Source: a virus. From it: a stretch of DNA of 20,427 nucleotides. The notes below the pieces were generated by a model. The model was given only the letters and a program-made list of their open reading frames with translations, ran no database searches and was not told where the DNA came from. Positions 3,725 to 17,988 of the stretch are shown here, in pieces; the stretch's first letter is position 1, and every line of letters starts with the position of its first letter. The position numbers were made by a program, and so were the translations under genes. The stretch is from IMG/VR virus record IMGVR_UViG_3300010391_000277, positions 1 through 20,427 of that record; one strand, written 5' to 3'.

Positions 3725-5728
3725 ATGAGTGAAATAACTGAAAATACTTTATCAGCATATCTCGGTCCTGAATTTCAACAACGCCTTATGTGGCAATTAC
3801 TTGTAGAACCTGAATTTGCTGAAAAAACGATACCTAATTTAGCTGTTGAATATTTTGATGACCCGAATCTCAAAAGACTTTTCATTATAATTCTTGAATA
3901 TTTCAAAGAATATGAAAAAGTTCCAAATCTTCAAAATCAAAGTATACAACAAGCAATCAATAAATACAAGACACCCAATAATATAATTGAAGAAGAATCA
4001 CTCTTTGCAGTAATCAAACGCATTGAAATGTGGAATGAAAGAGTGATTAATAAACAAATGTTACATGATGGTGATGTTGTACAAAAAACAACCAGTGGTT
4101 TTATTAAACAACAAGAATATCGAAAACTTGGTGAACACATTTTAGAAAAGACAAAAAATGGTGAAATTCGAAATAAACATACTTTAGGTGCAATCGAAGA
4201 AAAAATTCAAAAAATCAGTCATATTGGTGATGAAGAAGATTATGGTACTGAAGTTATTGAGAATATTGATAAGGTATTGAGAAAAGAATTCCGTGAAACC
4301 ATAGCAACTGGTGTTGATGTTATTGATGGATTAACTGGCGGTGGTTTAGGTAAAGGTGAAATTGGAGTTATTTTGAGTCCTTCGGGTGCTGGCAAAACTA
4401 CTTTGCTTACAAAGATTGCCAATACTGCATACGAGATAGAAAAGAATGTATTGCAAGTCATATTTGAGGATACTACCGAACAAATACAGAGAAAGCATTA
4501 TACAATATGGTCAAAAACATCGTTGAGCAAAATTGATGATGAAGATGAAAACATTAGAGTTAAAAAAATTGTTCATGAAAAAGCAGAAGAATTAAAAAAA
4601 TCAAGAGGTAAACTTATAATCAAGAAATTTAGTCAGGAAAATACGACAATGATGGATGTCCGTAACTGGATGATTCGTCATCAGAAAAAATGGGGTTATA
4701 AATTTGATATTCTTGTTCTCGATTATCTTGATTGTCTCGAATCACATAAGAAAACCGCAGATAGAAATGAAGCAGAACTGGTAATTGTCAAATCATTTGA
4801 AGCATTGGCAACTGATTTCGATATTCCCGGATGGACAGCTATTCAGTCCAATAGAAGTGGTTTTGATGCAGAATTTGTAGAAGCACATCAAACTGGTGGG
4901 AGTATAAAAAGAGTTCAGAAAGCGCATTTTTTTATGAGTGTAGCAAAAACTAAAGACCAAAAAGAAGCACAATTAGCTAATATTAGAATTATTAAAGCAA
5001 GATTTGCACAAGATGGTCAGACATTTCAAGATTGTATATTTAATAATGATACAATGGAAATCAGAATTGAAGATGATAGATATAAGTATAATAGAATAAA
5101 TAAGAATACAAAACATTATGATAGTGAAGATGTTGATAAAATTGATGATAATGCAAATAAAATTCATATTGCTATTAGTCAACATACTGAAGCAGAATTA
5201 ACTGAAAAAGTTAATGATGATAATATAAATGAAATTACAGTAAAAGATGTAACTGAAATGACATCAACTGAAATTAATGACCTATTGAAGAAAAATGCCG
5301 AACAACTGGTAGATAATAATCCAGAAATAACTAAGCAACATATTGATAATATCACAACTGAAATTAATAATAATATTGCCAATACTGTAAAAGAAAAAGA
5401 ATCGTTTGAATGGGATGGTGAATCTGGAAATACAACCACCGAAATAATTAATGAACAACCTGAAGTTAAATTTGATAATGTCGAACCATTAATTGAAATT
5501 GAACCGGAAGAAGTTAAAACTTCAATTATCGTTAAAAATATTGTAATGGAATACAATGTTGTCAATAAAAATGGTAGAATGTATCCATCACCAAACCCAG
5601 AAATAAAACCAATCACTGAGATTGAAAGGAGATTTATTGACCCAGATGCGCCACATGGTGAAAATAAATTAATACAAGAAACTCTGGCTAAATTACGTAA
5701 GAATCAGAATGTTATAAAAAAAGAATAA
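3725..5728 (+). CDS. DnaB/gp41-like replicative helicase with long C-terminal extension
   Basis: A 667-residue protein. Residues 1-170 form a helical N-terminal region. The RecA-like motor has Walker A SPSGAGKTT (218-226), an acidic strand QVIFEDTTEQ (about 244-253), Walker B ILVLDYLD (329-336, D333) and a QSNRSG motif (374-379) like the DnaB motif-H4 region. This fits the hexameric 5'-3' replicative helicase family (DnaB/T4 gp41), which unwinds the fork ahead of the polymerase and recruits primase. Family members are usually 430-480 residues. Here about 210 more follow the core: an Asn/Asp/Glu/Thr-rich low-complexity stretch (about 455-610) and a final ordered-looking segment with NKNGRMYP and a basic end. 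Whether primase activity is encoded elsewhere cannot be told from the window. The gene has its own transcription gap behind a terminator. Confidence 0.88.
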   Translation: MSEITENTLSAYLGPEFQQRLMWQLLVEPEFAEKTIPNLAVEYFDDPNLKRLFIIILEYFKEYEKVPNLQNQSIQQAINKYKTPNNIIEEESLFAVIKRIEMWNERVINKQMLHDGDVVQKTTSGFIKQQEYRKLGEHILEKTKNGEIRNKHTLGAIEEKIQKISHIGDEEDYGTEVIENIDKVLRKEFRETIATGVDVIDGLTGGGLGKGEIGVILSPSGAGKTTLLTKIANTAYEIEKNVLQVIFEDTTEQIQRKHYTIWSKTSLSKIDDEDENIRVKKIVHEKAEELKKSRGKLIIKKFSQENTTMMDVRNWMIRHQKKWGYKFDILVLDYLDCLESHKKTADRNEAELVIVKSFEALATDFDIPGWTAIQSNRSGFDAEFVEAHQTGGSIKRVQKAHFFMSVAKTKDQKEAQLANIRIIKARFAQDGQTFQDCIFNNDTMEIRIEDDRYKYNRINKNTKHYDSEDVDKIDDNANKIHIAISQHTEAELTEKVNDDNINEITVKDVTEMTSTEINDLLKKNAEQLVDNNPEITKQHIDNITTEINNNIANTVKEKESFEWDGESGNTTTEIINEQPEVKFDNVEPLIEIEPEEVKTSIIVKNIVMEYNVVNKNGRMYPSPNPEIKPITEIERRFIDPDAPHGENKLIQETLAKLRKNQNVIKKE

Positions 5729-5821: not shown

Positions 5822-5852
5822 TTGCACAATTAAAAAATGTGTTGTATGTTTG
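5822..5852 (+). promoter_or_regulatory. Bacteroidetes-type promoter of the RNA region
   Basis: TTG (5822-5824), a 20-base spacer, then TATGTTTG (5845-5852) match the TTTG-N19/20-TAnnTTTG consensus of Bacteroidetes primary-sigma promoters. The run TTTTTTGAAAAATACTTGCA just upstream resembles host stable-RNA promoters. Transcription should start near 5858-5862 and run through the tRNA-like cluster. This is the best promoter in the window. Confidence 0.65.
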
Positions 5853-5872
5853 TATCGTCTTAGAATAAAAAA

Positions 5873-5884
5873 CGTTCTTTAATG
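5873..5884 (+). promoter_or_regulatory. boxA-like antitermination element in the RNA leader
   Basis: CGTTCTTTAATG matches the rrn boxA core (YGYTCTTTAA) and lies ~15-20 bases after the predicted transcription start. Ribosomal RNA leaders use boxA to bind NusB/NusE and prevent premature termination in untranslated transcripts. Its presence fits a long untranslated RNA operon. A short match in AT-rich DNA could be chance. Confidence 0.4.
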
Positions 5885-5896
5885 TATTGAAAAAAT

Positions 5897-6022
5897 AAAA
5901 AGGAAACGGTTTGTTATTTCAGTAACAATTAGCTCAGTGTAGAGCTTCCGCATTTATAGCAGAAAGTCGTGGGGTCGCACCCACATTGTGTAAACAACAA
6001 TAACAAACAAACTGTCCTTTTT
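5897..6022 (+). ncRNA. tRNA-like RNA clamped by a long outer stem (element A)
   Basis: The core at 5923-5991 has tRNA form: a weak acceptor stem (five inner pairs), TA, a D arm (GCTC 5932-5935 with GAGC 5942-5945), an anticodon-type arm (5947-5963, one C-A mismatch, loop ATTTATA, anticodon position UUA), a five-base variable loop and a T-type arm (GTGGG with CCCAC). The T loop has only six bases and lacks the usual TTCRA, base 37 is U, and the D loop lacks GG. Around it an outer stem forms: AAAAAGGA (5897-5904) with TCCTTTTT (6015-6022) and GTTTGTTATT (5909-5918) with AATAACAAAC (5999-6008), with a small internal loop between. Taken literally UUA would read the ochre stop codon, which several genes here use. 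The degenerate features plus the stem look more like a tRNA mimic such as a Y RNA. Confidence 0.5.
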
Positions 6023-6036
6023 CTATAGTTTTTATA

Positions 6037-6053
6037 GCTTTTTCACAAAAAGC
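6037..6053 (+). other. Small hairpin between element A and tRNA-Met
   Basis: GCTTTTT pairs with AAAAAGC around a CAC triloop. A weaker neighbour hairpin (CTATA with TATAG, 6023-6037) precedes it. These could be processing signals or a weak terminator for element A. Confidence 0.4.
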
Positions 6054-6061
6054 CATTATAT

Positions 6062-6140
<79 letters not shown>

Positions 6141-6235
6141 CAAGTAAATTGAAATTATGAAAGTAATTAGTATGGTTCTGGAAACAGAGTAAGATAGAAT
6201 GAAACAAGTCCACACCATCTCAATTTCGGGCATAA

Positions 6236-6312
6236 AGAAGAACTGATAGTTTTTACAGTAAAATTGACGGTAAATCAAACACTTACAAATCAAAAACTAA
6301 CGAATTTCTTCT
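6236..6312 (+). ncRNA. Long hairpin RNA (element E), Y-RNA-like shape
   Basis: AGAAGAA (6236-6242) pairs with TTCTTCT (6306-6312) and TAGTTTTT (6247-6254) with AAAAACTA (6292-6299), separated by an asymmetric internal loop (CTGA opposite ACGAAT). A 37-base apical loop carries CAGTAA and ACGGTAAATCAAA. The 5' strand and loop align closely with 6392-6430 in element C. The stem, internal loop, stem and large apical loop order is the general shape of Y RNAs, though the canonical Ro60-binding sequence is not seen. The preceding 6143-6235 holds a small hairpin (TTCTG, GAAA loop, CAGAG, 6175-6188) and nothing else I can identify. Confidence 0.4.
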
Positions 6313-6340
6313 GAACTTATTGATGTTCTTTTAAATAAAT

Positions 6341-6477
6341 GGGGAGATAGCAAATTAAAAACAAAAATACTATCTCAATACTCTCTTAAATGAGAGAACT
6401 AATGGTGTTTTCAGTAATACGGTAAAGCAAATTGTGTTGAAAACAATTAATTATGAGTTCGATTCTCATTCTCCCCA
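6341..6477 (+). ncRNA. tRNA-like structure with a ~65-base D-loop insertion (element C)
   Basis: The ends form a perfect acceptor stem, GGGGAGA (6341-6347) with TCTCCCC (6470-6476), discriminator A. A perfect T arm (ATGAG, loop TTCGATT, CTCAT, 6453-6469) adjoins it. T8-A9 and the start of a D arm (TAGCAAA) follow the 5' strand. The D-arm 3' part (ACGGTAAAGC) appears only at 6419-6428. Then comes an arm ATTGT-GTTGAAA-ACAAT (6431-6447) whose middle triplet would be TGA (Ser), although a class II variable arm is missing. About 65 bases (6354-6418) therefore interrupt the D loop, including hairpin CTCTC/GAGAG and motif GGTGTTTTCAGTAA. Competing pairings exist: GAGATAG with CTATCTC (6344-6376), TGTTTTCA with TGAAAACA (6406-6445), and AATGAGA with TCTCATT. 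It may be a disrupted tRNA or a tRNA mimic. Confidence 0.5.
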
Positions 6478-6484
6478 CAAATAT

Positions 6485-6522
6485 ACGCAGTAAAGCCTCT
6501 TACGAAAGTAATGTAACTGCGT
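6485..6522 (+). ncRNA. Structured RNA hairpin with GNRA tetraloop
   Basis: ACGCAGT (6485-6491) pairs with ACTGCGT (6516-6522). Inside, TTAC-GAAA-GTAA (6500-6511) forms a second hairpin capped by a GAAA tetraloop. The 5' strand contains another CAGTAA. It lies between elements C and D and may be the 5' domain of D. Confidence 0.45.
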
Positions 6523-6545
6523 GACTGTATGAAGGGAAAACGAAA

Positions 6546-6650
6546 GGTGTTTACAGTAAATTCGTTGGTTCGAATCCAACATCCCGCCATTGGCGAGATT
6601 GGCTGAGTGGTTTAAAGCGCAAATATGCTAAATTTGAAAACAATTACACC
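6546..6650 (+). ncRNA. Circularly permuted tRNA-Ser(GCT)-like RNA (element D)
   Basis: A 5' half of tRNA-Ser lies at 6593-6636: acceptor GCGAGAT, TG, a class II D arm (GCTGAGTGGTTTAAAGC) and a perfect anticodon arm CAAAT-ATGCTAA-ATTTG with anticodon GCT. No matching 3' half follows. Just upstream is a lone 3' half: T arm GTTGG-TTCGAAT-CCAAC (6564-6580) and ATCCCGCC (6581-6588). The two acceptor strands pair with each other, ATCCCGCC with GGCGAGAT (6592-6599), seven of eight pairs with one A-C mismatch, closed by the triloop ATT. So the halves are in 3'-then-5' order. The outer ends also pair: GGTGT (6546-6550) with ACACC (6646-6650), or TGTTTACA with TGAAAACA (6635-6642). This could be a permuted tRNA gene or a Y-RNA-like tRNA mimic. 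Confidence 0.5.
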
Positions 6651-6679
6651 AAATACTTTTAAAATATTCCCTGAGTTTC

Positions 6680-6755
6680 AACGTCTGGAATGAGTCGCAT
6701 AGCGTCTCAAATGAGAAGATTTATCTTTATCACCAGTCGTTTTTTAATTTTTTTT
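6680..6755 (+). ncRNA. Structured 3' domain with terminator-like end
   Basis: AACGTCTGG (6680-6688) pairs with CCAGTCGTT (6733-6741) with one T-T mismatch. Inside it TGAGTCGC (6691-6698) pairs with GCGTCTCA (6702-6709), also with one T-T mismatch. A T-rich run follows. It may be the end of element D or a separate small RNA. Confidence 0.4.
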
Positions 6756-6769
6756 GTAATAGAAATGTG

Positions 6770-6823
6770 AAATGGGTGGGGATTGACATAGAAATATGTT
6801 AGCTCACCCATTTTTGTTTTTTT
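6770..6823 (+). terminator. Terminator of the RNA region
   Basis: AAATGGGTG (6770-6778) pairs with CACCCATTT (6805-6813). An inner hairpin ACATA-GAAA-TATGT (6786-6799) stacks within, and TTTTTGTTTTTTT follows. It separates the RNA operon from the Ro60-like gene. Confidence 0.75.
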
Positions 6824-6865
6824 AAAAATAATTGGTTAAAAATTTTTTTATAATAAAAATTAATA

Positions 6866-6873
6866 TATATTTG
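6866..6873 (+). promoter_or_regulatory. Possible -7 box before the Ro60-like gene
   Basis: TATATTTG fits the Bacteroidetes TAnnTTTG element and would give a leader of about 15-20 bases before the ATG at 6897. No -33 TTG is present at the right distance. Its place just after the terminator supports a separate promoter. Confidence 0.4.
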
Positions 6874-6896
6874 CATACTAATTAAAATTTTGTACT

Positions 6897-8525
6897 ATGG
6901 AAAATTTGGTATTAACACAAAAAATGCTTGTAGATGTTAGACAATCATTAATTGATGGTTTAACTGTTGCGAGTGGTGCTAAGAGCAGTGCAACTTATTA
7001 CCACAGCAAAGATGAACAAATGAAAGCTATTCAGGGTCAGATTAAGAACTTGTATAAACTTTCAAAGGAACTTCCATTAATTATAGCAAGTCAAAAGGGT
7101 GTTACTGGTAGATTTATATCAGAGGTATTGCTTAATGAATTTAAGCAAACTTTAAGGGGTGGAGCATGTAATATCGTTAATCCAATTGATTGGTATGATA
7201 ATGGATTGTCAGATAAGGCAGTTCTTACCGCATTAAATAACCTTGGTGAAAATGGTTTACCATATGTATTACGTCTTTTCGTTGATTTAAAAGATGCAAG
7301 GGTGAACAACGAAAGGTCGAGGAAAATCGCACTTGGCTTTATTTGGGGTCAGGATAATCTTGAATTCTATGCAATGAAGTACAGGAACAAGATTGCTGAA
7401 ATCCTAAAGCACGTATATGGCGTGAAAAAAACCAGTATATTACTTTCAATTGCACAGAAGAATGTTGTGACCAATGGTTTGTATGAAAGTGATAAGGAAT
7501 TGTTAATTGCTAATGACAATATTTTAAAATATTTTAATGGCAGTGACATGAAAGCATTCAAGTTATTACTTTTCTTATTCAAAAAAGATGTTGGCGTTGA
7601 ATATGGCGAAACTGAATTTCCTCTTTTGAGAGAATATCAAAGAGCAAAGGTTAATATTAATGGTGTTAAGACTGTGCCAGAAGAAGTATTGCTTGGTTTG
7701 ATTTCGTCAGTAAAACATCCACAATATCATTCAATGTGGGCAACTGATGCTCAAAGATTAGTTACAAAGGCTTTATTCAGAAAGAATGTGCAAGTGACTT
7801 CGGTTAACCAGCAGGTTCGTCAGACAAAATCAACTGCAAAGCTTGGTGTTGAAAAAACTGTTGATTTGGAAAAGGCAACGGATTTCCTTGCTCTTTACAA
7901 GACTGGTTATGAAAATGGCTGGACTGATGAATTGAATCTTGCGATTGTGAAACTCGCAACAAAGAAGAAAATTCAAGGATTCTTTTATCAGAATATTGGT
8001 ATAATTGTCGATGACAGTATCTCAATGACCGGAAACAAATTGGAATCCAAGAATACTCCAAGGGCAATTGCCGATTTTACTACATTGGTTCTCATGAACT
8101 CAGTAAAATCTTCGGTGGTTTTAAAGACCAGTGGATTTTCAACTGATATTGCCAGTTCGTTCATTGACCTTTTGAAGAATGAAAATCCTTCAAACCCATA
8201 TAATGCAATTTTTATTTTAACCGATGGTTATGAAAATTCGTATGACGGTTTGACTAATGAAGTCATTTCAATGTGGAAAGCAGAAACCCAGAGGAATATT
8301 CCAATGTTTCAGATTTCACCAATCACCAGTGCTGAAATGGGTGCAAACGTAAGAAAATTGGGCGAAGGTGTTGTCACAATGGCAATAAATAATCCAATTG
8401 CATTACAGCCACAAATCAATGCAAGACTTTTGGAAATCGATACCAAAAGATGGTTGGAAAATCAGGTATTGGCTCTTGAGTCAGCACCTATTACAAGGTC
8501 GAAGAAAATTAGTATTAACGCTTAA
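6897..8525 (+). CDS. Ro60-like protein (TROVE-like helical region plus vWA domain)
   Basis: A 542-residue protein, the usual length of Ro60. Residues 1-~350 are predominantly helical, like the HEAT-repeat ring of TROVE proteins. A von Willebrand A domain follows (about 365-515) with a complete MIDAS motif DDSIS (D372, S374, S376) after the hydrophobic strand NIGIIV, and ILTDG (D443) as the later metal site. The order helical ring then vWA is that of Ro60/Rsr, which binds Y RNAs on its surface and misfolded RNA ends in its cavity and can partner an exonuclease. TROVE identity is judged from architecture and length, not from an alignment. The neighbourhood supports it: tRNA-like non-coding RNAs lie directly upstream, as Y RNAs lie near bacterial Ro60 genes. 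A MoxR-partner vWA protein is the main alternative, but no MoxR ATPase is in the window. The next gene starts 11 bases later, so they form an operon. Confidence 0.62.
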   Translation: MENLVLTQKMLVDVRQSLIDGLTVASGAKSSATYYHSKDEQMKAIQGQIKNLYKLSKELPLIIASQKGVTGRFISEVLLNEFKQTLRGGACNIVNPIDWYDNGLSDKAVLTALNNLGENGLPYVLRLFVDLKDARVNNERSRKIALGFIWGQDNLEFYAMKYRNKIAEILKHVYGVKKTSILLSIAQKNVVTNGLYESDKELLIANDNILKYFNGSDMKAFKLLLFLFKKDVGVEYGETEFPLLREYQRAKVNINGVKTVPEEVLLGLISSVKHPQYHSMWATDAQRLVTKALFRKNVQVTSVNQQVRQTKSTAKLGVEKTVDLEKATDFLALYKTGYENGWTDELNLAIVKLATKKKIQGFFYQNIGIIVDDSISMTGNKLESKNTPRAIADFTTLVLMNSVKSSVVLKTSGFSTDIASSFIDLLKNENPSNPYNAIFILTDGYENSYDGLTNEVISMWKAETQRNIPMFQISPITSAEMGANVRKLGEGVVTMAINNPIALQPQINARLLEIDTKRWLENQVLALESAPITRSKKISINA

Positions 8526-8536
8526 TAATTCATATA

Positions 8537-9643
8537 ATGAATACAAGAGAATTTACAGAGTTGCTTAAAGGTTGTCGTCCTGTCAAAGATAGTGATGGTA
8601 ACATTGTAGTGCAAAGTATTTTAAATATGCAAGTTGTATGTCTTACAACTGATGAAGAATATTCATTGGATACTCGTTTTGCAAATCCTTTGACTGCTCT
8701 TCAAGCAGGTAATAACTCATACGGTCAAATTAGTTTTTCCAATAAAACTGATAAGGAAGTTATTGTGCCTACTCAGATGGCAGTTATGACCAAGCAGAGT
8801 GCTCAGAATCACGGTATGACAAAAGCTGGTTACATGGAAAAGTACGCCAATGTAACTTACCATGACGCAGGTTGTGTTCAGGGCGGACAAACTGGTTACT
8901 TTCGTGGTACTCAGGAATTCCGTATGCTTCCAATAACCATGCGTGAAATGGTGTTCGATACTATTGGACAACCAAGTGGATATCAAAGGATTTATCCTGC
9001 TATCAATAAATTAGGTACTGATACTCAGTCTGGTGCAGGTAACTATCTTAATGTTTACTTTGAAAAGTATGACAAGAAACTCGAACAGTTTATTGCACAC
9101 TTTGAACGTCCACGTAATCTTATAGGTATCATCGTATTGGTTGATGGTGAAATTGTTGCAATAGACAAATTCCCTTCATTCACATATGCCGAACAGGTTT
9201 GGGATTTGATGATTCGTGACTGTTATGGTGCATTGGCAATTATCAGTGAATTGAAGCACAAGACTTCAAATGCGATATTTACTGAAACTTTCAATGAAAC
9301 GAAGAAGACTAATCAGGAAAACATCGTTGATTTGCTTGAAAAAGCTTTGAAGAAAACCAAGCAAAGTGTTACTGCAAGTGTTCAAGAAAAGATTCAAGAA
9401 CTTCTTGAATTGACTTTTGAAGCAACTCTTGATACTGAAGGTAATCCTTCAGCTATGAGCAAAGCACCAAAAAGCTACGTTTTAAAAGATAGTGATAATA
9501 ACTATATTGGTCAGGTTATCACTGAAAATGAATATAATCATCTTGTTTCAATTGTAAAACGTGATACATTTAATCCAGATATATTAAGACAAGTAAATGA
9601 ATTAAAACGTAAAGCAAAAAAACAAAATAAATTTATGTTATAG
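8537..9643 (+). CDS. ARPP-1-like protein, partner of the Ro60-like gene
   Basis: A 368-residue protein. A central core resembles the ARPP-1 family: a strand-rich start (about 60-90, ISFSNKTDKEVIVPTQMAV), a segment with AGCVQGGQTGYF (111-122), and LIGIIVLVDGEIVAIDKFPSF (about 195-215) followed by an aromatic helix VWDLMIRDCYGALAI (221-235). ARPP-1 proteins are predicted, not characterised, and occur in conflict and repair operons. The C-terminal third is Lys/Glu-rich helix, perhaps coiled coil (about 250-300), then a basic tail. There is no signal peptide or membrane segment. The 11-base gap to the vWA gene and a shared terminator indicate co-transcription, so it probably acts with the Ro60-like protein. 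The family match is by memory of motifs; treat the function as unknown. Confidence 0.5.
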   Translation: MNTREFTELLKGCRPVKDSDGNIVVQSILNMQVVCLTTDEEYSLDTRFANPLTALQAGNNSYGQISFSNKTDKEVIVPTQMAVMTKQSAQNHGMTKAGYMEKYANVTYHDAGCVQGGQTGYFRGTQEFRMLPITMREMVFDTIGQPSGYQRIYPAINKLGTDTQSGAGNYLNVYFEKYDKKLEQFIAHFERPRNLIGIIVLVDGEIVAIDKFPSFTYAEQVWDLMIRDCYGALAIISELKHKTSNAIFTETFNETKKTNQENIVDLLEKALKKTKQSVTASVQEKIQELLELTFEATLDTEGNPSAMSKAPKSYVLKDSDNNYIGQVITENEYNHLVSIVKRDTFNPDILRQVNELKRKAKKQNKFML

Positions 9644-9659
9644 ATTTATTGTATATATC

Positions 9660-9696
9660 AAAAACCCGACTATAAACATAGTCGGGTTTTTTTTTT
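9660..9696 (+). terminator. Rho-independent terminator of the Ro60-like operon
   Basis: AAAACCCGACTAT (9661-9673) pairs with ATAGTCGGGTTTT (9678-9690) around an AAAC loop, with a T10 run. It ends the two-gene operon. Confidence 0.95.
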
Positions 9697-9725
9697 GCCA
9701 TATACAGTCATAATATAAAAATTTT

Positions 9726-9802: not shown

Positions 9803-10528
9803 ATGAAGAAATTAACAACAGAAGAATTTATATTAAAAGCAAAAAAAATACATGGGAATAGGTATGATTATTCGAAATGTGTTTATAATGGTTCATTTAG
9901 TGTTGTCGATATTATTTGTGATAAACATGGTGTTTTTCAACAAACACCCAATCGTCATTTAAATAATCGTGGATGTGTTAAATGTGGTAATATTAAGCAA
10001 AGCAATTCACGAAGAAAAACATTAAAACATTTTATAGTTAAATCAAAAACTATTCATGGTGATAAATATGATTATTCAAAAGTTAATTATTTTGATTCAA
10101 GAATAAATGTAACAATTATTTGTCCTGAACATGGAGAGTTTAATCAAAAACCTAATAATCATCTAAAAGGGTTTGGATGTTCACAATGTAATATGAAATC
10201 ATTGGGTGAATTAATGATAATAAATTGGTTGAATCGAAATAATATTAAATATGAAATTCAAAAATCATTTTCAAATTGCAAAAATATTATACATCTCAGA
10301 TATGATTTCTATTTACCCAATCAAAAATTATTGATTGAATATGATGGTGAACCACATTTTAAAGAAATAGAATATTTAGGGGGTAAAGATGGATTAATGT
10401 ACAGACAAATTAATGATAAAATTAAGACCGATTATGCAATGAATAATAATTTTAATTTATTGCGAATTAAATATACTGAAAGAAAAAATCTATCGGAAAT
10501 TTTAAAAAATAATATTATAATTATTTAA
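9803..10528 (+). CDS. Free-standing homing endonuclease (Vsr/EDxHD-like)
   Basis: A 241-residue protein. Two copies of a ~55-residue zinc-ribbon-like DNA-binding unit (about 9-63 and 77-130) share F-I-x-K-[AS]-K-x-IHG-[ND]-[RK]-YDYSK, then IICxxHG, then a GCxxC pair. The C-terminal half is a PD-(D/E)XK-fold nuclease of the very-short-patch-repair type: E136, D168 in YDFYLP, the strand LLIEYDG (177-182, D181), H185, and a later acidic residue (D206 or D210). Such genes are common selfish elements in large phages. They cut a specific site in related genomes and spread by recombination. It sits between the Ro60-like operon and the fibre genes, and the first fibre gene starts 11 bases after its stop, so it has been inserted next to, and perhaps shares a transcript with, virion genes. 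It is more AT-rich than its neighbours. Confidence 0.85.
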   Translation: MKKLTTEEFILKAKKIHGNRYDYSKCVYNGSFSVVDIICDKHGVFQQTPNRHLNNRGCVKCGNIKQSNSRRKTLKHFIVKSKTIHGDKYDYSKVNYFDSRINVTIICPEHGEFNQKPNNHLKGFGCSQCNMKSLGELMIINWLNRNNIKYEIQKSFSNCKNIIHLRYDFYLPNQKLLIEYDGEPHFKEIEYLGGKDGLMYRQINDKIKTDYAMNNNFNLLRIKYTERKNLSEILKNNIIII

Positions 10529-10539
10529 CAATTAAATAT

Positions 10540-11676
10540 ATGGCTTTTTTTGCGAGACCAAATCTGGATGACTTGCAGTTTAAACAACTGAGTGGAAGTA
10601 CATTGACTTTATCAGGTCAAACTCAAATAATAAATCCATCTGGTTTAACAATATCGGATGGTAGTGGTAGTACAATTGTAATTAATGCAAAAGGTGCTTC
10701 AGTTGGTAATGTATTGACTTTTGATGGTAATGAAATTAATTTACAATTACCATCATCTGGCGCAAGCACTGGAATATATACATGTGCATCACCAACTACA
10801 TGTACAGTTGGTGGATTAAGTGCAAGTACTTCAATAACTGGATGTACTATTGCTCGTTTACTTGAAATGATATTAGTTCCGACATTATATCCTACATTAT
10901 CTGCACCATTTAATACTTTTTCAATTTTTCCTGCAACTACACAATATGAAGTGGGTACATCAATTAGTATTACAGGAACTTCAATATTCGATAGAGGATG
11001 TATCTGTCCTGCATATTGTGGTGGTCCACAATATAGAAGTGGTTTACCAATTGCTCATGTAGTTAATTTCTTTGGTAGTGACGTATCAGCATTTACAAGT
11101 AATTTAACTACTGGTGTAACATGTGCATCATATTGTGTTAGTGATAGTGGCAATGCAGTAAGTGGTAGAGTTATATATTCAGGTGGTTCACAACCATTGA
11201 ATAGTTCTGGTAGTAGTTATAGTACACCATTACCTTCAGGTACAACAGCAACAATACCAATAAATATTAGTGGAATTTATCCATATTTTTATGGTACTGT
11301 AGCAAGTAGTGGAGCATCTGCTGGTGGTAATAGACCTGCATCAACACCAGCATTAGTTACTGGTGGAACTAAAGTTGTGGCTCAAAGTACAGGTACTATT
11401 GCTATTATTTTTAATAGTACTTCTGATGATTATTTATTTTTTGCAATACCAACTGGAAGTACAAGTAAAACTAAATGGTTTGTCGATGCATTAAATAATG
11501 GTAATATTGGCGGTGCAGTAACTCCGGGGGGTAATTTATTCCCTACGTTTTGCACTGTTACTGGTGTTACTTCAACAATATGGGGTAATGTTGGTTGTTC
11601 ATCACAAACATATAAAGTTTATGTTAGTAATTATCAAACAGCATCAAGCACATCAATGCAATTAAGAAATACTTAA
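10540..11676 (+). CDS. Fibre-like virion surface protein 1
   Basis: A 378-residue protein rich in Ser, Thr, Gly and Asn. The N-terminus (1-70) starts with the LSGSTLTLSGQTQI segment shared with the 13424 and 19144 proteins and is likely an attachment or beta-helical part. Residues ~80-378 form a domain that also makes up the C-terminus of the 13424 protein. Shared landmarks are L-[FL]-E-x-[IL]-L-VP, then D/N-RGCI-x-P-x-YC, then Y-P-Y-[FY]-YG, then LVTGGTKVVA, then STSKTxWFV, and an ending QTYKVYVS...Q[FL]RN. This looks like a receptor-binding or tip domain. It contains about ten cysteines. No signal peptide is present, as expected for a virion protein. Function is inferred from composition, repeats and position. 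Confidence 0.65.
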   Translation: MAFFARPNLDDLQFKQLSGSTLTLSGQTQIINPSGLTISDGSGSTIVINAKGASVGNVLTFDGNEINLQLPSSGASTGIYTCASPTTCTVGGLSASTSITGCTIARLLEMILVPTLYPTLSAPFNTFSIFPATTQYEVGTSISITGTSIFDRGCICPAYCGGPQYRSGLPIAHVVNFFGSDVSAFTSNLTTGVTCASYCVSDSGNAVSGRVIYSGGSQPLNSSGSSYSTPLPSGTTATIPINISGIYPYFYGTVASSGASAGGNRPASTPALVTGGTKVVAQSTGTIAIIFNSTSDDYLFFAIPTGSTSKTKWFVDALNNGNIGGAVTPGGNLFPTFCTVTGVTSTIWGNVGCSSQTYKVYVSNYQTASSTSMQLRNT

Positions 11677-11688
11677 AAATATTAAGAT

Positions 11689-13401
11689 ATGGCTATAATA
11701 TTAAATGATAATATAAAAATAAATGCTGGTAAACCAAGCGAGTCTAAATATTTAACTTCTGGAAATACAGCATATGCTTCAATAACAGCAGTAAACGCAG
11801 CAATACCAATTTCAGAAAGATATGTTGGTTTAACTGTTCTTATTGATTCTGGTACAACAAATATTGAACATTGGTATGAAGAAGGCGTAACGAATGGTGA
11901 TTTAATTGAAAAGAAATTCAATACTATAATTCCAATTGGTGATTTCATTACGGGTGCAACAAATCTTGGATATTTTAGTGGACAAACAGGTATACAAACA
12001 TTACCAATAACCAATTTACCAGATACTGATTATAACGGTAATTATAATTCTTTATATAATTTTTATTATAGAGGAATTGATGGAAATATTCATGCAGATA
12101 CACCAACAGATGAAATTCCAAGAAGAGGTTATGTTAAAACTGCCATTCCAGTTAAGTCATTTCTTTGGAATGAATATACTGGTAGTACAAATTTACTTGG
12201 TTGGATTTTAGTCGATGGTGATATTTCAACTCAACTTGGAACATTTCAAAATGGTGTAATATATTATACTGGAGCATCAGAAGTATATACTGAAACTGGT
12301 TGGACTACGGGAATTGGATATAATAATGGATCGGATTTGGTTATTAGTACAGTTGTTGGTAGTTTAACAACTGGTACTACATTAGCAATTGGTGGTAGAC
12401 CTTTTGATTTCAGTGAACATAATAATTTACATTTTAGAACAATTGTATCAGAAACACCACAACTTATTGGAGTTAGAGATGATGAAACATTTATTTATTT
12501 ATCTGGCAATACAGGAAGTCAAATTATTACAGCAAGTAATGGTTTAACAAAAGTCGGTCAAAATGTAAAATTAGGTGGTACATTAACCGCTTCAACGGTA
12601 ATTACAGATTCAAATGCAATTCCAAGTGGTATCACATATGCTGCGGATTATTCGGCAACATTTATTTCACGTTCATTGATTGATAAAGGATATGTAGATG
12701 GCAGACTTTTATGTTCATTGGGTGGAGAAAGAATTTTTAAAATGATTTGTCAAACATCACATGGATTTAATACCAATTGCGTAGTTGGTTGGAGTGGTGG
12801 AACATATAATTTAGCAATTGCAAACGGTACATATGATGGTGAAATTCTTGGTGTTATAAGTAAATGTTTTAATGCGAATTGTTTCGAATTAACACAAGCA
12901 GGATACGTCACTGGTTTAACTCCAACACTTACAATGAATTGTACATATTTTCTTAGTGCTACAGTTGCGGGTAAATTATGTGAAATTGAACCAATTGTTC
13001 CTAATTTTTTGAGTAAATCAATGTTAATCGCTACATCAAGTAATACTGGATGGGTTCTACCATATGCAGCATACGTGATATCAAGTGGTTTTACGGATGG
13101 TGGAGCATTGGTTAAAAATGTTTGCCTTCCAACAATACCTACATATTCAATGATTAATTCAGACTTTTTTGTTGGTGTATCAGGTGGTTCAACAGTTGTT
13201 TTACCAACAACACCTAAATGTGGAATGGTTGTGGTTGTTGGAGATGTTGGCAATAATGCTGCAAGTTTTCCAATAACAATTGTTGGTAGTGTAGTCGGTT
13301 GTACATCAACATCACAAATTGATACCAATTCTGGTTCATTATCATATATTTATAACGGTACAAGATGGAATGTATTTGCATTCTCACCAGTACTTAGTTA
13401 A
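11689..13401 (+). CDS. Fibre-like virion surface protein 2
   Basis: A 570-residue modular protein. The N-terminus (MAIILNDNIKINAGKPSESKYL, 1-~75) matches the start of the 15820 protein, and both genes are preceded by TTAAGATATGG, indicating duplication of the 5' end. The middle has a region about prospective display (DTPTDEIPRRGY). At about 284-337 is the repeated module NGLTKVGQNVKLGG, ITDS, YAADYS, RSLIDKGYVD. The C-terminal ~200 residues are beta-rich and hold about ten of its cysteines. They end in a GDVGNNAASFPITIVG segment similar to the capping part of the 15820 protein. The module plan is typical of trimeric phage fibres. Twelve bases separate it from the previous gene. Confidence 0.65.
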   Translation: MAIILNDNIKINAGKPSESKYLTSGNTAYASITAVNAAIPISERYVGLTVLIDSGTTNIEHWYEEGVTNGDLIEKKFNTIIPIGDFITGATNLGYFSGQTGIQTLPITNLPDTDYNGNYNSLYNFYYRGIDGNIHADTPTDEIPRRGYVKTAIPVKSFLWNEYTGSTNLLGWILVDGDISTQLGTFQNGVIYYTGASEVYTETGWTTGIGYNNGSDLVISTVVGSLTTGTTLAIGGRPFDFSEHNNLHFRTIVSETPQLIGVRDDETFIYLSGNTGSQIITASNGLTKVGQNVKLGGTLTASTVITDSNAIPSGITYAADYSATFISRSLIDKGYVDGRLLCSLGGERIFKMICQTSHGFNTNCVVGWSGGTYNLAIANGTYDGEILGVISKCFNANCFELTQAGYVTGLTPTLTMNCTYFLSATVAGKLCEIEPIVPNFLSKSMLIATSSNTGWVLPYAAYVISSGFTDGGALVKNVCLPTIPTYSMINSDFFVGVSGGSTVVLPTTPKCGMVVVVGDVGNNAASFPITIVGSVVGCTSTSQIDTNSGSLSYIYNGTRWNVFAFSPVLS

Positions 13402-13423
13402 TATAATAACGTAAAGAAATATT

Positions 13424-15808
13424 ATGGCAAAAACATTTAGAACCAATCAGAATTTAATTAATGATGGATTTAGGCAATCAACCGGATATACGTTATCATT
13501 ATCTGGTAATACTTTAATTGGTAATTGTGCTACTTTTAAATATGCCACAAATCAACATACTAAATATACTGCTCGTTCAATTACTGATGCTGATTATGTA
13601 ACTGGTTTAACATCTGGTATTAGATTAATTGGTTCTAATCAACAACTTATATATCGAGATATTTCTGGAATTACGGGTGCTACTGGTTTTATTTATGATA
13701 ATGCAACATCAGGTGTTACAGTACCTAATTTATATATCTCACAAGCACCAGTAAATGAAGTTGGTGACTATTTTTTATTAACATGGGATAGTGGTACGAC
13801 TAAAGTAGGGAAAATAAATGCTGTTAGTGTTACAGGCTTACAATGCGCAACTAATGGTTTAGGTATTGTTGGTGATTGTGCATGTTTAGGAGGATTATTA
13901 ATTAATGATACAACAATATGTGGTTCAGATATATATTCATTAAGACTTCAAGGTTTATGTGGAATGTGTATAATAACAACAGCAAATAATATTGTTCTTG
14001 ATAGTCGTTGCAATAGTGGTGGAATATATTTAAAATCTCAATGCGGTACAATTAGTAGTCCTATAAGTAATTTTAGTTCTGCTATTGGTATAGCAATTGA
14101 TTATCCATCAGATATTTTTAAAATCTATGATAATCGTTCAGGCGTATCGCAAAGAGGTATTGAATATGCTGGTGATTATAGTGCATTTTATAGTCAACGT
14201 TCTATTGTTGATAAATCATATGTAGATGCCATTGCTGCTGGTCTTCAACCACATCCTGCTGTTGATGTCGCAACAACAGGTAATACGGTATTAACAGGAT
14301 TAACAGGTACAACAATAATTGATAGTATTGTTTTAAGTCAGGGTAATAGAATATTAATTAAAAATCAAATAGATGCCAAAAAAAATGGTATCTATATTTT
14401 AACTGGTACTACTTTTGTACGTGCAGGAGATTTTAATGAAAGTTCTGAATCTATTCATGGAGCATATACGTTTGTAATATCTGGTGCTACAAACGCTAAT
14501 ACTTCATGGGTATTAAGCACACCGAATCCAATAACAATTGATGTAACTCTTTTAACGTTCACATTATTTGCTCAAGTTACAGATATTATTGCAGGTACTG
14601 GAATAACTATTTCAAAGTTCTATGGTCAAAATACTATATCGGTAAATGGTCCAAGTATTGCGGGAAATTCTTTATTATGGAATAATTTAACATGTAAATT
14701 TGATGTAGATATTAGTGGTGGAACATTAGCAACAGCATTAAGTCAAACAATAACTGGTGCAACAAATGGTTTAACAAAATCAGGACAAGAATTAAAACTT
14801 GGTGGTACATTAACTGGAAGTACTGTAATAACAGATTCACGAGCAATTAAGGTTGGTATTCAATATGCAGGTAGTTATAGTTCAGGATTTACATTACATT
14901 CACTTATTGATAAAGAATATGTTGATACACAAATGTCCAGTGGTGGAACATATAATTTACAATCACCTGCAGCAATATGTGTTGGTGGAATTTGTGTGGG
15001 TACTGTTTTAACAGGAAAAACTGCATTTGAATTATTTGAAGAATTGCTTGTACCTGAATTATTTGGTATAATAACAGCACCAAGTACATCAATTAGTTTA
15101 TCTTCTGGTGGTACATTTGAAGTAGGTTGTGTTATTTCACAATTAATCATCGGAACATTCAATCGAGGATGTATTAATCCACAATATTGTAGTCTTTCTG
15201 ATAAAAGAAGTGGTTGTGCAAATGCATATTGTTTTACTGGATGTGGAATGCCAATAGGACTTCAAACATGTGTATTAACACCTGCAACTCAAACAAACGC
15301 AACGTATACGTTATCTGCGGGTACTCAAACATGGGGTGTTTGTACGAGATATGATGCAGGTTGTCCAGCTTTAGGTAGTAAAGGTACACAATATTGTGCA
15401 GCATTAGTTTCTGGATGTACTGCTGCAGCAAATTCAAGTATTACTGGTCTTTATCCATATTATTATGGAAAACTTACAAGTGGTTCACGTCCTGCAGTAA
15501 CAAATGTTTTAGTAACTGGTGGAACAAAAGTTGTTGCAAGCAGTACTGGAACTGTTACTGTTACCTTTAGTAGTGTTGGACAATGGACTTGGCTGGCAAT
15601 ACCATCATCGAGTACATCAAAAACCTGTTGGTTTGTAACTGCTCTTGATAATGGTAGAATAAATAATGCACCAACTGATAAATATCCTGATGAATGTGTA
15701 TTTAGTATTTGTTCAGGACAGGGATGTTGGACATCTCAAAATTATAAAGTTTATGTAAGTGGATTCGCTGCAACAGATGCCAGCGCAATTCAATTTAGAA
15801 ATAGTTAA
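13424..15808 (+). CDS. Large modular tail-fibre-like protein 3
   Basis: A 794-residue protein. Modules in order: an N-terminal part with ARSITDADYVTG; a Cys-rich beta region (about 140-215); a degenerate copy of the YAGDYS...RSIVDKSYVD unit (about 245-268); a module at about 271-405 with QGNRILIKNQIDAKKNGIY, VRAGDF and WVLSTPNPIT, a layout widespread in tail fibres of unrelated phages; the NGLTKSGQELKLGG to LIDKEYVD repeat (about 447-499); and a C-terminal ~290-residue domain homologous to residues 80-378 of the 10540 protein. The recognised QGNRILIKNQ module makes a tail-fibre or related adhesion role likely. About 28 cysteines occur. It follows the previous gene by 22 bases. Confidence 0.72.
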   Translation: MAKTFRTNQNLINDGFRQSTGYTLSLSGNTLIGNCATFKYATNQHTKYTARSITDADYVTGLTSGIRLIGSNQQLIYRDISGITGATGFIYDNATSGVTVPNLYISQAPVNEVGDYFLLTWDSGTTKVGKINAVSVTGLQCATNGLGIVGDCACLGGLLINDTTICGSDIYSLRLQGLCGMCIITTANNIVLDSRCNSGGIYLKSQCGTISSPISNFSSAIGIAIDYPSDIFKIYDNRSGVSQRGIEYAGDYSAFYSQRSIVDKSYVDAIAAGLQPHPAVDVATTGNTVLTGLTGTTIIDSIVLSQGNRILIKNQIDAKKNGIYILTGTTFVRAGDFNESSESIHGAYTFVISGATNANTSWVLSTPNPITIDVTLLTFTLFAQVTDIIAGTGITISKFYGQNTISVNGPSIAGNSLLWNNLTCKFDVDISGGTLATALSQTITGATNGLTKSGQELKLGGTLTGSTVITDSRAIKVGIQYAGSYSSGFTLHSLIDKEYVDTQMSSGGTYNLQSPAAICVGGICVGTVLTGKTAFELFEELLVPELFGIITAPSTSISLSSGGTFEVGCVISQLIIGTFNRGCINPQYCSLSDKRSGCANAYCFTGCGMPIGLQTCVLTPATQTNATYTLSAGTQTWGVCTRYDAGCPALGSKGTQYCAALVSGCTAAANSSITGLYPYYYGKLTSGSRPAVTNVLVTGGTKVVASSTGTVTVTFSSVGQWTWLAIPSSSTSKTCWFVTALDNGRINNAPTDKYPDECVFSICSGQGCWTSQNYKVYVSGFAATDASAIQFRNS

Positions 15809-15819
15809 AATTTTAAGAT

Positions 15820-17988
15820 ATGGCTATAAATTTAAGTGACAATATTTTTACAAGTGCTCCAAAACCAACAGATAGTAGGTATTTGAATAATCTTGTGCCA
15901 TATGCGAGTGTAAGTGCTGCCAATAGTGGAATTACTGGTGGTGTTGGTGGCGTTAGATATACTGGTTTAACTGTTAATATATTAGGTACTGAATATTGGT
16001 ATTGTAATGGTATTGGTGATGCAAATTTAGTTGTAAAAGATACGGGTATTTTAAATACGGGAATCACAAGTGCAATTAATGGTTTAACTAAAGTAGGAAC
16101 AGCAGTTAAATTAGGTGGTACAATAACTGGTAGTACTATAATTACAGATAGTCGTGTAACTCCACTCGGTATTCAATATGCAGCAGATTATTGTGGAACA
16201 TTTACTGCACGTAGTATACCAGATGCTGAATATGTAACTGGAAAAACTGCAGCAGCACTGGTAAATTATTATACTAAAGCACAAATCAATAGTTATACAG
16301 GACAGACTCTGACAAATATTAACACTAGATTGTTAACATCTGTATTTAATACATTTAGTGGTACAACACTACCTGCAAATTATTATAATAAAGCCCAAAT
16401 CAATAGTTATACTGCAAGTACTTTAACAAATATTAATAGTAGATTGTTAACATCTGTATTTAATACGTTTAGTGGTACAACACTACCTGCAAATTATTAT
16501 AATAAATTGCAGATTAATAGTTATACCGGACAGACTCTGACAAATATCAACAGCAGAGCACTTCAAAGTAATTTCGTGACACATACTGGTGACACCAGTA
16601 TTCATTATGTTCAGTCTGCAATTACTATCACTGAAACTCAAGTAACTAATTTGCCGACAGATTTAACTGGTTTACAGAATCAAATCGACCAACTTAGTCA
16701 AATTCAGACAACAACAATTTATTATCCAGAACACGATAATTCCGATGTTGTGGGCTATGAAACACTTAAAAGAAGTCCTGATAGTACAAGTGGACATACA
16801 CACACAGTTGGAATTAATAATAATACTATACAACTTGGTGCATGGGTAACAGCACAAGGCGACCCCGGAATAACTGGAATTACTGCTGGTTTATGGACGC
16901 TTCACACGCATGCTCAATGGGATGGTACGAATGGTACGAATTTCTTGCATTGGGATGTATATAAACGTACCACTGGTGGTACAGAAACTTTATTGTTTCG
17001 TGTAAGTACTGCAGATATTACCGTAACAACACTTGTTGAATACCAAGAAGAAATTGTATATAGTGGTATAACAATGAATCCAAGTGATAGGCTTGTATTG
17101 AAGATTTTGGCACAAACAACTGGTGGCGCAAAAAATGCGAGTATACTATTTGGTGGGACTCTGAATTTTGCTTTCATGCAACCACCAATATTATCCAATA
17201 TGGAAGTATTGTGGAGTAGTATTCTGGGAAAACCTGCATGGCTTACCGGAACAACACTTGGTGCATTTCAAGCAGGTCACTCACATAGTCAATATGTACT
17301 TCAAACAGCAATTAACACATTTACTGGTACAACATTACCTAGTAATTATTATAATAAAACACAGATTAATAGTTATAGTGGTCAAACTGATACAAGACTT
17401 GATATAATTGAAGCTGATTATATTACGGGTGTTACAAATGGTTTAACTAAAGTAGGTGCACATGATACATGTCTTGGTGGCGCATTGGTTGCAAATACTT
17501 GCATAAGTGGTGCATTTCTTTTTGGAGTAAATGTTACAAATATCAACCTTACTGGAACAACTGTTAATATTGGTGGTATAATTAAAATAACATCAATACC
17601 ATCTGCAGGTTTAACAACCGATTCATTTCTTGTTAGAGCAACTGATGGTACGGTTAAAACAATAAGTGGTTCAACTTTTGGTGATAGAAATAATATATAT
17701 TCATATACTGCAATCACTACTGGTGTAAATTTATATACTGGTAGTTCTTATGTTATATTGGTAAGTCCAAGTTCACCATTGGTAGTTTGTTTACCTGCAA
17801 CACCTGTTAATGGTGAAGTATTTAAGTTCAAAGATATTCTTCCCGGTGCATTGTTAAATAATATTACAATTTGTGGTAGTGGTAAATGTATTGATGGTTC
17901 ACCAACAGCATTAATTAATACCGATTATGGTGCACTTGAAATCATATATAATGGAACAAATTGGTTTAGTTTAAGTTTCATTAACTAA
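15820..17988 (+). CDS. Large modular tail-fibre-like protein 4 with tandem repeats and HxH motifs
   Basis: A 722-residue protein. The N-terminus resembles the 11689 protein. The NGLTKVGTAVKLGG to ARSIPDAEYVTG module follows at about 87-140. Three tandem 38-residue repeats lie at about 149-262 (unit NYYNKAQINSYTASTLTNIN, then a part with VFNTFSGTTLPA), and a fourth partial copy near 505-525. The middle (about 310-445) is a beta domain containing SGHTHT and LHTHAQW, and AGHSHSQ occurs near 485. HxH pairs coordinate metal along the axis of T4 gp37/gp12-type fibres, so these may do the same. The C-terminus ends in a segment about lattice capping (LPGALLNNITICGSG) shared with the 11689 protein. 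It is the last gene before a terminator. Confidence 0.72.
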   Translation: MAINLSDNIFTSAPKPTDSRYLNNLVPYASVSAANSGITGGVGGVRYTGLTVNILGTEYWYCNGIGDANLVVKDTGILNTGITSAINGLTKVGTAVKLGGTITGSTIITDSRVTPLGIQYAADYCGTFTARSIPDAEYVTGKTAAALVNYYTKAQINSYTGQTLTNINTRLLTSVFNTFSGTTLPANYYNKAQINSYTASTLTNINSRLLTSVFNTFSGTTLPANYYNKLQINSYTGQTLTNINSRALQSNFVTHTGDTSIHYVQSAITITETQVTNLPTDLTGLQNQIDQLSQIQTTTIYYPEHDNSDVVGYETLKRSPDSTSGHTHTVGINNNTIQLGAWVTAQGDPGITGITAGLWTLHTHAQWDGTNGTNFLHWDVYKRTTGGTETLLFRVSTADITVTTLVEYQEEIVYSGITMNPSDRLVLKILAQTTGGAKNASILFGGTLNFAFMQPPILSNMEVLWSSILGKPAWLTGTTLGAFQAGHSHSQYVLQTAINTFTGTTLPSNYYNKTQINSYSGQTDTRLDIIEADYITGVTNGLTKVGAHDTCLGGALVANTCISGAFLFGVNVTNINLTGTTVNIGGIIKITSIPSAGLTTDSFLVRATDGTVKTISGSTFGDRNNIYSYTAITTGVNLYTGSSYVILVSPSSPLVVCLPATPVNGEVFKFKDILPGALLNNITICGSGKCIDGSPTALINTDYGALEIIYNGTNWFSLSFIN
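16264..16605 (+). repeat. Tandem 114-base coding repeat, three copies
   Basis: Units begin at 16264, 16378 and 16492, spaced exactly 114 bases (38 codons). The first two are nearly identical and the third diverges in its second half. They encode the repeated NYY[NT]K[AL]QINSYT shaft unit. A partial fourth unit is at about 17317-17390. Tandem repeats of this kind let a fibre shaft change length by recombination. Confidence 0.85.

Follow-up and report, generated by a model that had tools for sequence, protein, structure and literature searches.

The window considered here is the 20,427-nucleotide (nt) IMG/VR virus record IMGVR_UViG_3300010391_000277, a fragment of a large phage; it contains a locus in which a protein predicted to adopt the Ro60 fold is encoded downstream of an array of structured RNAs and upstream of a gene of the ARPP-1 family. 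The array RNAs have a Y-RNA-like stem in common, which is joined to tRNA-like bodies in three attachment topologies, and the linkage to ARPP-1 is nearly constant among relatives. This anatomy supports the reading as a phage Ro60/Y-RNA ribonucleoprotein (RNP) system, which had been put forward in a first-pass annotation of the sequence. The two open reading frames (ORFs) named there, of which the first encodes 542 residues, are correctly placed and lie 11 bases apart. The components of the locus are:

5898–6021, plus strand: chimera B, stem 5898–5904/6015–6021 and 5909–5917/6000–6008, with a tRNA-like body (about 5925–5989) closed at the acceptor end
6062–6140, plus strand: element C, resembling an initiator tRNA(fMet) (ARAGORN; Rfam tRNA, 44.5 bits), with a conserved CAU anticodon
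6237–6311, plus strand: element D, consisting only of the Y-like stem and the plain loop that it closes, GAAGAACTGATAGTTTTTACAGTAA ... AAAAACTAACGAATTTCTTC
6341–6480, plus strand: chimera E, tRNA-like, acceptor 6341–6347/6470–6476 followed by ACAA, with a Y-like hairpin (6364–6411) in the D-loop
6534–6671, plus strand: chimera FG, Y strands 6534–6552/6651–6671 around a circularly permuted tRNA-like body
6897–8525, plus strand: Ro60-like (TROVE-fold) protein of 542 residues, helical repeats at residues 8–356, vWA domain at about 366–530, metal ion-dependent adhesion site (MIDAS) DxSxS...D
8537–9643, plus strand: ARPP-1 family partner of 368 residues (PF20208, E = 5.4e-12, 46.1 bits with a cut-off of 27)

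The sequence libraries left the 542-residue protein unnamed; Pfam, PHROGs, NCBIfam, PADLOC and the PDB sequences gave nothing useful. An AlphaFold2 model built from a 21-sequence alignment (predicted local distance difference test, pLDDT, 77.9) displays the helical N-terminus and the vWA domain that had been read from the sequence, and comparison of this model with the PDB by Foldseek, a check proposed at the outset, returned Ro60/TROVE proteins, matched full-length, in 12 out of 12 matches at E ≤ 1e-3, among them Deinococcus Rsr and the Ro60 of Thermus phage phiLo (9l5y); the first match beyond this set follows at E = 0.068. A viral structure library also returns Ro-like and TROVE proteins. 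The MIDAS is indeed intact, as its residues D372, S374, S376 and D443 do not vary among five divergent lineages, including relatives at 18–28% identity, and account for DxSxS and the final D of the full motif DxSxS...T...D; in the helical part NN-x-R and KYR-x-K...H are invariant in five divergent members. About 70 IMG/VR contigs of up to 374 kb encode members of the family (48–87% identity), and distant relatives are found in a 462-kb phage (27.6% identity) and on plasmids of Alkaliphilus and Nostoc, while a narrow two-pattern scan of bacterial and archaeal genomes found none. By its predicted fold the protein is Ro60-like, by sequence it belongs to a separate family; we infer that it would bind RNA, as well as the function considered below.

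The RNA array (5898–6680) is conserved in 57 non-identical loci, in which its modules were located with hidden Markov models (HMMs) made from segments of the window; the usual order in relatives is E-B-C-D-(E)-F-G-D, with varying copy number of the modules. Their common stem, GAAAACU...GUGUUU-ACAGUAA paired with its own 3′ strand, is composed on the 5′ side of helix 1, an AACUG-type strand, helix 2 (GUGUUU) and WCAGUAA, and on the 3′ side of AAAUAC, an A-rich stretch and the partner of helix 1. It is attached to the tRNA-like body at the acceptor end in B, in the D-loop in E and in the variable loop in FG, and closes a plain loop in D; throughout, its 5′ strand runs into the body and its 3′ strand emerges from it. 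Chimera B (fold z = −4.19) is matched by the Rfam tRNA model with 30.1 bits at 5923; the matches of E (fold z = −3.85; 21.9 bits at 6404) and FG (21.6 bits at 6593) are sub-threshold. In FG the body consists, in this order, of the T arm (6564–6580), an acceptor hairpin (6581–6599), the D arm (6602–6618) and the anticodon arm (6620–6636), the stem taking the position of the variable loop; a circularly permuted tRNA-like RNA is present in most genomes of the family. Both E and FG retain an acceptor end, at which CCA or a near-CCA is encoded (NCCA in 24 of 39 FG sequences). In B, D and FG the RNA ends form a two-helix stem with a conserved internal loop, which closes a variable domain as in Y RNAs; in E, the Y-like stem is an internal hairpin, not formed by the ends. 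The tRNA-like domain known from Y RNAs of the YrlA type is found in B, E and FG.

Element C is kept at the same place in most loci and carries a 6-nt insert in its T stem in the window. It is seen in nearly every array, often with inserts in the variable loop or the T stem (L086, L092, L113), and one locus has two copies. For a 90-nt stretch of the window between C and D (6142–6233) no counterpart was seen in most relatives; the window in turn has no second copy of D ahead of the terminator. Low-scoring Rfam matches to RT-11 and to the Tymo tRNA-like family were dismissed, being weak and on the opposite strand.

Support for these structures comes from covariation. They were drawn by hand on MAFFT alignments, after which paired cells and double changes were counted. 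For FG (A3, n = 39), 99.1% of 1170 cells are paired, with 203 double changes vs 57.7 in shuffles, and pairing falls to 40–55% when the partners are slid; the corresponding values are 94.3% and 122 vs 28 for B (A4, n = 37), 94.6% and 184 vs 48 for E (A5, n = 41, with a 7-bp acceptor), and 99.3% and 19 vs 6.9 for D (A7, n = 33). The acceptor stem of E is paired in 99.7% of cells, its anticodon and T stems in 100%. Shuffled controls do not remove relatedness; slid controls retain it, and fail too. The permuted reading of FG is checked independently by one divergent phage (L114), whose FG RNA is in unpermuted order and bears the stem hairpin in its variable loop. The 462-kb phage (27% protein identity) has the same RNA architectures in different letters. 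The tRNA-like RNAs with an extra stem, an insertion or a permuted order that the first-pass annotation had described were thus all recovered, with folding z-scores, conservation and covariation beyond chance; in place of ordinary or decayed tRNAs without synteny, the array consists of covarying chimeras of tRNA and Y-like stem in conserved synteny. The 462-kb phage has a further E-type chimera among its clustered ordinary tRNAs (LR756500, 86180–86440; L135). In E, a rival pairing, GAGATAG/CTATCTC, connects the 5′ acceptor/D segment with the internal loop of the stem (6341–6390 in the window); its mean run is 6.7 bp vs 5.8 with partners swapped, and it is possibly a switch or pseudoknot. Another alternative helix in E was rejected, as it fits the alignment worse than the Y-like hairpin in the D-loop.

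The array is closely tied to the Ro60-like gene. The motif of the stem's 5′ strand has 188 occurrences in the 198 kb that precede Ro60 genes vs 12 in 561 kb elsewhere, counted on the same strand. When the FG motif alone was searched across 2.9 million viral contigs, 40 were found, comprising 33 with known Ro60, six whose ends lie less than 540 bases from the motif, too near for Ro60 to be judged, and one without detectable Ro60; FG scores of at least 138 bits are confined to Ro60 loci. The exceptional contig (140,815 bp; G011 72500–82500, L178, L181) has neither Ro60 nor ARPP-1; its array, into which an ORF of foreign origin is inserted, is directly followed by a tail-fibre-like gene and is decayed, B and C not being found and D being truncated. 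This phage, a relative, represents a natural deletion of both genes. The joint absence of Ro60 and ARPP-1 together with the decay of the array is, in this single case, what would be expected of one functional unit.

ARPP-1, whose identity had been correctly surmised from the sequence, follows the Ro60-like gene in all 47 loci with room for it, in three of them after an intervening ORF of 186–188 residues. The two most divergent phages, L114 (48%) and L064 (28%), keep the Ro60-ARPP pair and the array, the remaining flanking genes being unrelated. Retention with changing flanks and absence along with Ro60 in one phage support ARPP-1 as a near-obligate partner of the Ro60-like gene, a role that had been suggested as new for this third member of the locus. 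Its model is of fair confidence (pLDDT 81) and has no match in the PDB at E ≤ 1e-3; weak fold matches to PNPase (probability < 0.1) were not used. Pairing of Ro60-like and ARPP genes extends more widely in bacteria, to plasmids of Alkaliphilus and Nostoc (L140, L141, L142): on the 435-kb Alkaliphilus plasmid pB6464 (L140, 7746–10318) the Ro60-like gene is followed by ARPP-1; on the Nostoc plasmids XisH/XisI intervene and ARPP-2 comes three genes on.

Within the window, genes for a UvsX-like recombinase, a 5′-3′ exonuclease and a DnaB-like helicase (ending at 5728) lie 5′ of the array; between the helicase gene and a group of tail-fibre-like genes follow the array, a hairpin, the Ro60-like gene, ARPP-1 and a small endonuclease-like gene. 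Judged by UvsX, the closest cultured relative is a Flavobacterium phage (37%), so the host is likely to belong to the Bacteroidota, in whose promoters the −7 box reads TAnnTTTG. Three putative transcription signals frame the locus:

5822–5852, plus strand: promoter-like sequence for the array, TTG at 5822–5824 and TATGTTTG at 5845–5852, read from the letters
6770–6818, plus strand: terminator-like GC hairpin with poly-T at the array end (HMM H in 55 loci; fold z = −3.62)
9661–9697, plus strand: terminator-like hairpin with poly-T 3′ of ARPP-1, read from the sequence

The RNAs had been placed directly upstream of the 542-residue gene; upstream they are, but the conserved hairpin at 6770–6818 lies between. 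The endonuclease-like gene (9803–10528) encodes a DUF4379 zinc finger, and four related, repeat-rich tail-fibre-like proteins (cluster c0) are encoded in tandem at 10540–17988. Endonuclease-like genes and other small ORFs are repeatedly inserted within and beside the arrays at many loci.

What the locus does is, in our estimation, somewhat more probably than otherwise the following: it specifies a phage Ro60 RNP, the tRNA mimics of which, as tethers or gates, bring Ro60 and ARPP to a tRNA-binding factor, whereby RNA is captured, degraded or shielded. Binding, processing and purpose we infer along these lines; RNA quality control, turnover or conflict over tRNA, the purposes suggested in the first-pass annotation, may apply. 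The array would be transcribed as a single RNA, from about 5855 to 6818, and tRNA-processing enzymes would cut this transcript; the common stem would serve as the Ro60 site, bound at the outside of the ring in the fashion of Y RNAs. Each RNP would then show its tRNA mimic in a different orientation, the mimics acting as tethers or gates, as has been proposed for bacterial Y RNAs. Ro60 and ARPP could thereby be brought to a host exonuclease, RNase P, a modification enzyme or an anticodon nuclease, and RNA that is damaged or structured, with tRNA as the most plausible case, would be captured, degraded or shielded during infection.

Several results weigh against this proposal. The template modelling (TM) scores of the 542-residue model to Ro60 are modest (about 0.4), and the TROVE profile PF05731 has no match in 16 family members or in 10 phages, which is why the protein is called Ro60-like and considered a separate sequence family. 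The match to the Rfam YrlA model (RF02553) by which the array RNAs were to be recognized did not materialize, as nothing in 5 phages exceeded the 69-bit cut-off and the best score, 29.7 bits, lies inside a tRNA cluster away from the Ro60 locus. Bacterial Y RNAs carry the motif GNCGAAN0-1G in the 5′ strand; it is absent from the 5′ strands of the array RNAs (GAAAACU...), and CGAA or CAAA is present on the 3′ strand. The Alkaliphilus plasmid pairs Ro60 with ARPP-1, yet no tRNA-like array was found there. Finally, genes for PNPase and RtcB were not above cut-off in 11 phages; as 10 of these 11 do have an RNA ligase gene, the RNP would use host nucleases or phage ligases.

The tRNA-like bodies might have purposes other than tethering. 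Held by Ro60 and bearing many different anticodons, they could bait host anticodon nucleases, as decoys or sensors directed against tRNA-cleaving toxins, and ARPP would sense the damage or act on it. The anticodon of B is hypervariable, with 20 triplets (UCA and UUA among them) in 37 sequences, but U33 and A37/A38, which are read by many tRNA enzymes, are mostly retained; warfare over tRNA would also fit the RNA ligase gene and the up to 53 ordinary tRNA matches per genome, away from the array, in large relatives, and YrlA of Salmonella has been proposed as an anticodon-nuclease inhibitor (PMC7790460). However, relaxed constraint yields free anticodon variation as well, and no known defence model matches the locus; we regard this scenario as rather unlikely. 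A multi-RNA Ro60 particle which shows tRNA bodies in several topologies, one of them circularly permuted and one with a hypervariable anticodon, as decoys or sensors of tRNA cleavage, with ARPP as its dedicated effector, is similarly doubtful.

That the RNAs are working translation tRNAs with odd introns, chimeric in look by chance, is highly improbable. It is true that element C, with its conserved CAU, looks like an intact initiator tRNA, and that E and FG retain acceptor, T and anticodon stems along with the acceptor ends described; but anticodons lack conservation, E and FG often have no U33, the common stem covaries and tracks Ro60, and ordinary tRNAs are found elsewhere in the same genomes. 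Chimera B has no free acceptor end; the stem buries it, which makes charging and decoding unlikely for this RNA. An array that merely served as a landing zone of introns or homing-endonuclease genes, its stem a splicing or mobility signal and Ro60 a bystander, would account for the varying copy number of the modules and for the extra ORFs among them, some of which are related to the endonuclease-like gene cluster. Yet the order E-B-C-D-F-G-D is mostly constant, the array RNAs persist in the window without such ORFs, no Rfam intron family matches them, and absence of Ro60 goes with a degraded array; this explanation, too, is improbable.

There are few model systems for bacterial Ro60 RNPs; the phage locus adds a Ro60 family missed by sequence profiles. 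As nature has varied the position of the tRNA body on the Ro60 stem and kept both parts, tether, gate and decoy become separately testable; the regular protein partner offers a lead to ARPP function, and among relatives one structured RNA occurs both linear and circularly permuted. Apparently new are the chimera topologies including the permutation, the previously unrecognized Ro60 family and the near-obligate ARPP, with YrlA compared by its motif and topology as generally known.

Bacterial RNPs of Rsr with YrlA or other Y RNAs were reportedly described by Chen et al. in 2014. As in the Rsr-YrlA systems of Deinococcus and Salmonella, the latter encoded by rsr-yrlBA-rtcBA (PMC7790460), the Ro60 gene of the window adjoins Y-type RNAs, with a tRNA-like domain past the Ro stem, and B resembles YrlA in having the stem joined to the acceptor end of the tRNA-like body. 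In contrast, several RNAs are present here, with three attachment places and one circular permutation; ARPP follows, RtcB/RtcA was not found in the phages searched, and neither the Pfam TROVE nor the Rfam YrlA model matches. Phage Ro60/Y RNA systems as such are already known from jumbo phages with TROVE proteins (PMC7824862), from Vibrio phage pir03 (PMC7765460) and from Listeria phage CKA15, in which three strongly transcribed regions, possibly Y RNAs, have the Rsr gene within 2 kb on their downstream side (PMC12282133); in the relevant passages of these accounts ARPP is not mentioned. With these phages and with phiLo the window shares a phage-encoded Ro60, of a different sequence family. The pairing of Ro60-like with ARPP genes is shared with Alkaliphilus pB6464 (ARPP-1), which differs in having no detected tRNA-like array upstream, and with the Nostoc plasmids (ARPP-2). 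Algae and archaea have circularly permuted tRNA genes, in which the 3′ half precedes the 5′ half and a loop joins them at the acceptor. FG likewise has its 3′ half first and an acceptor loop between the halves, but, unlike those genes, it ends within a Ro60-type stem and has an unpermuted relative in L114.

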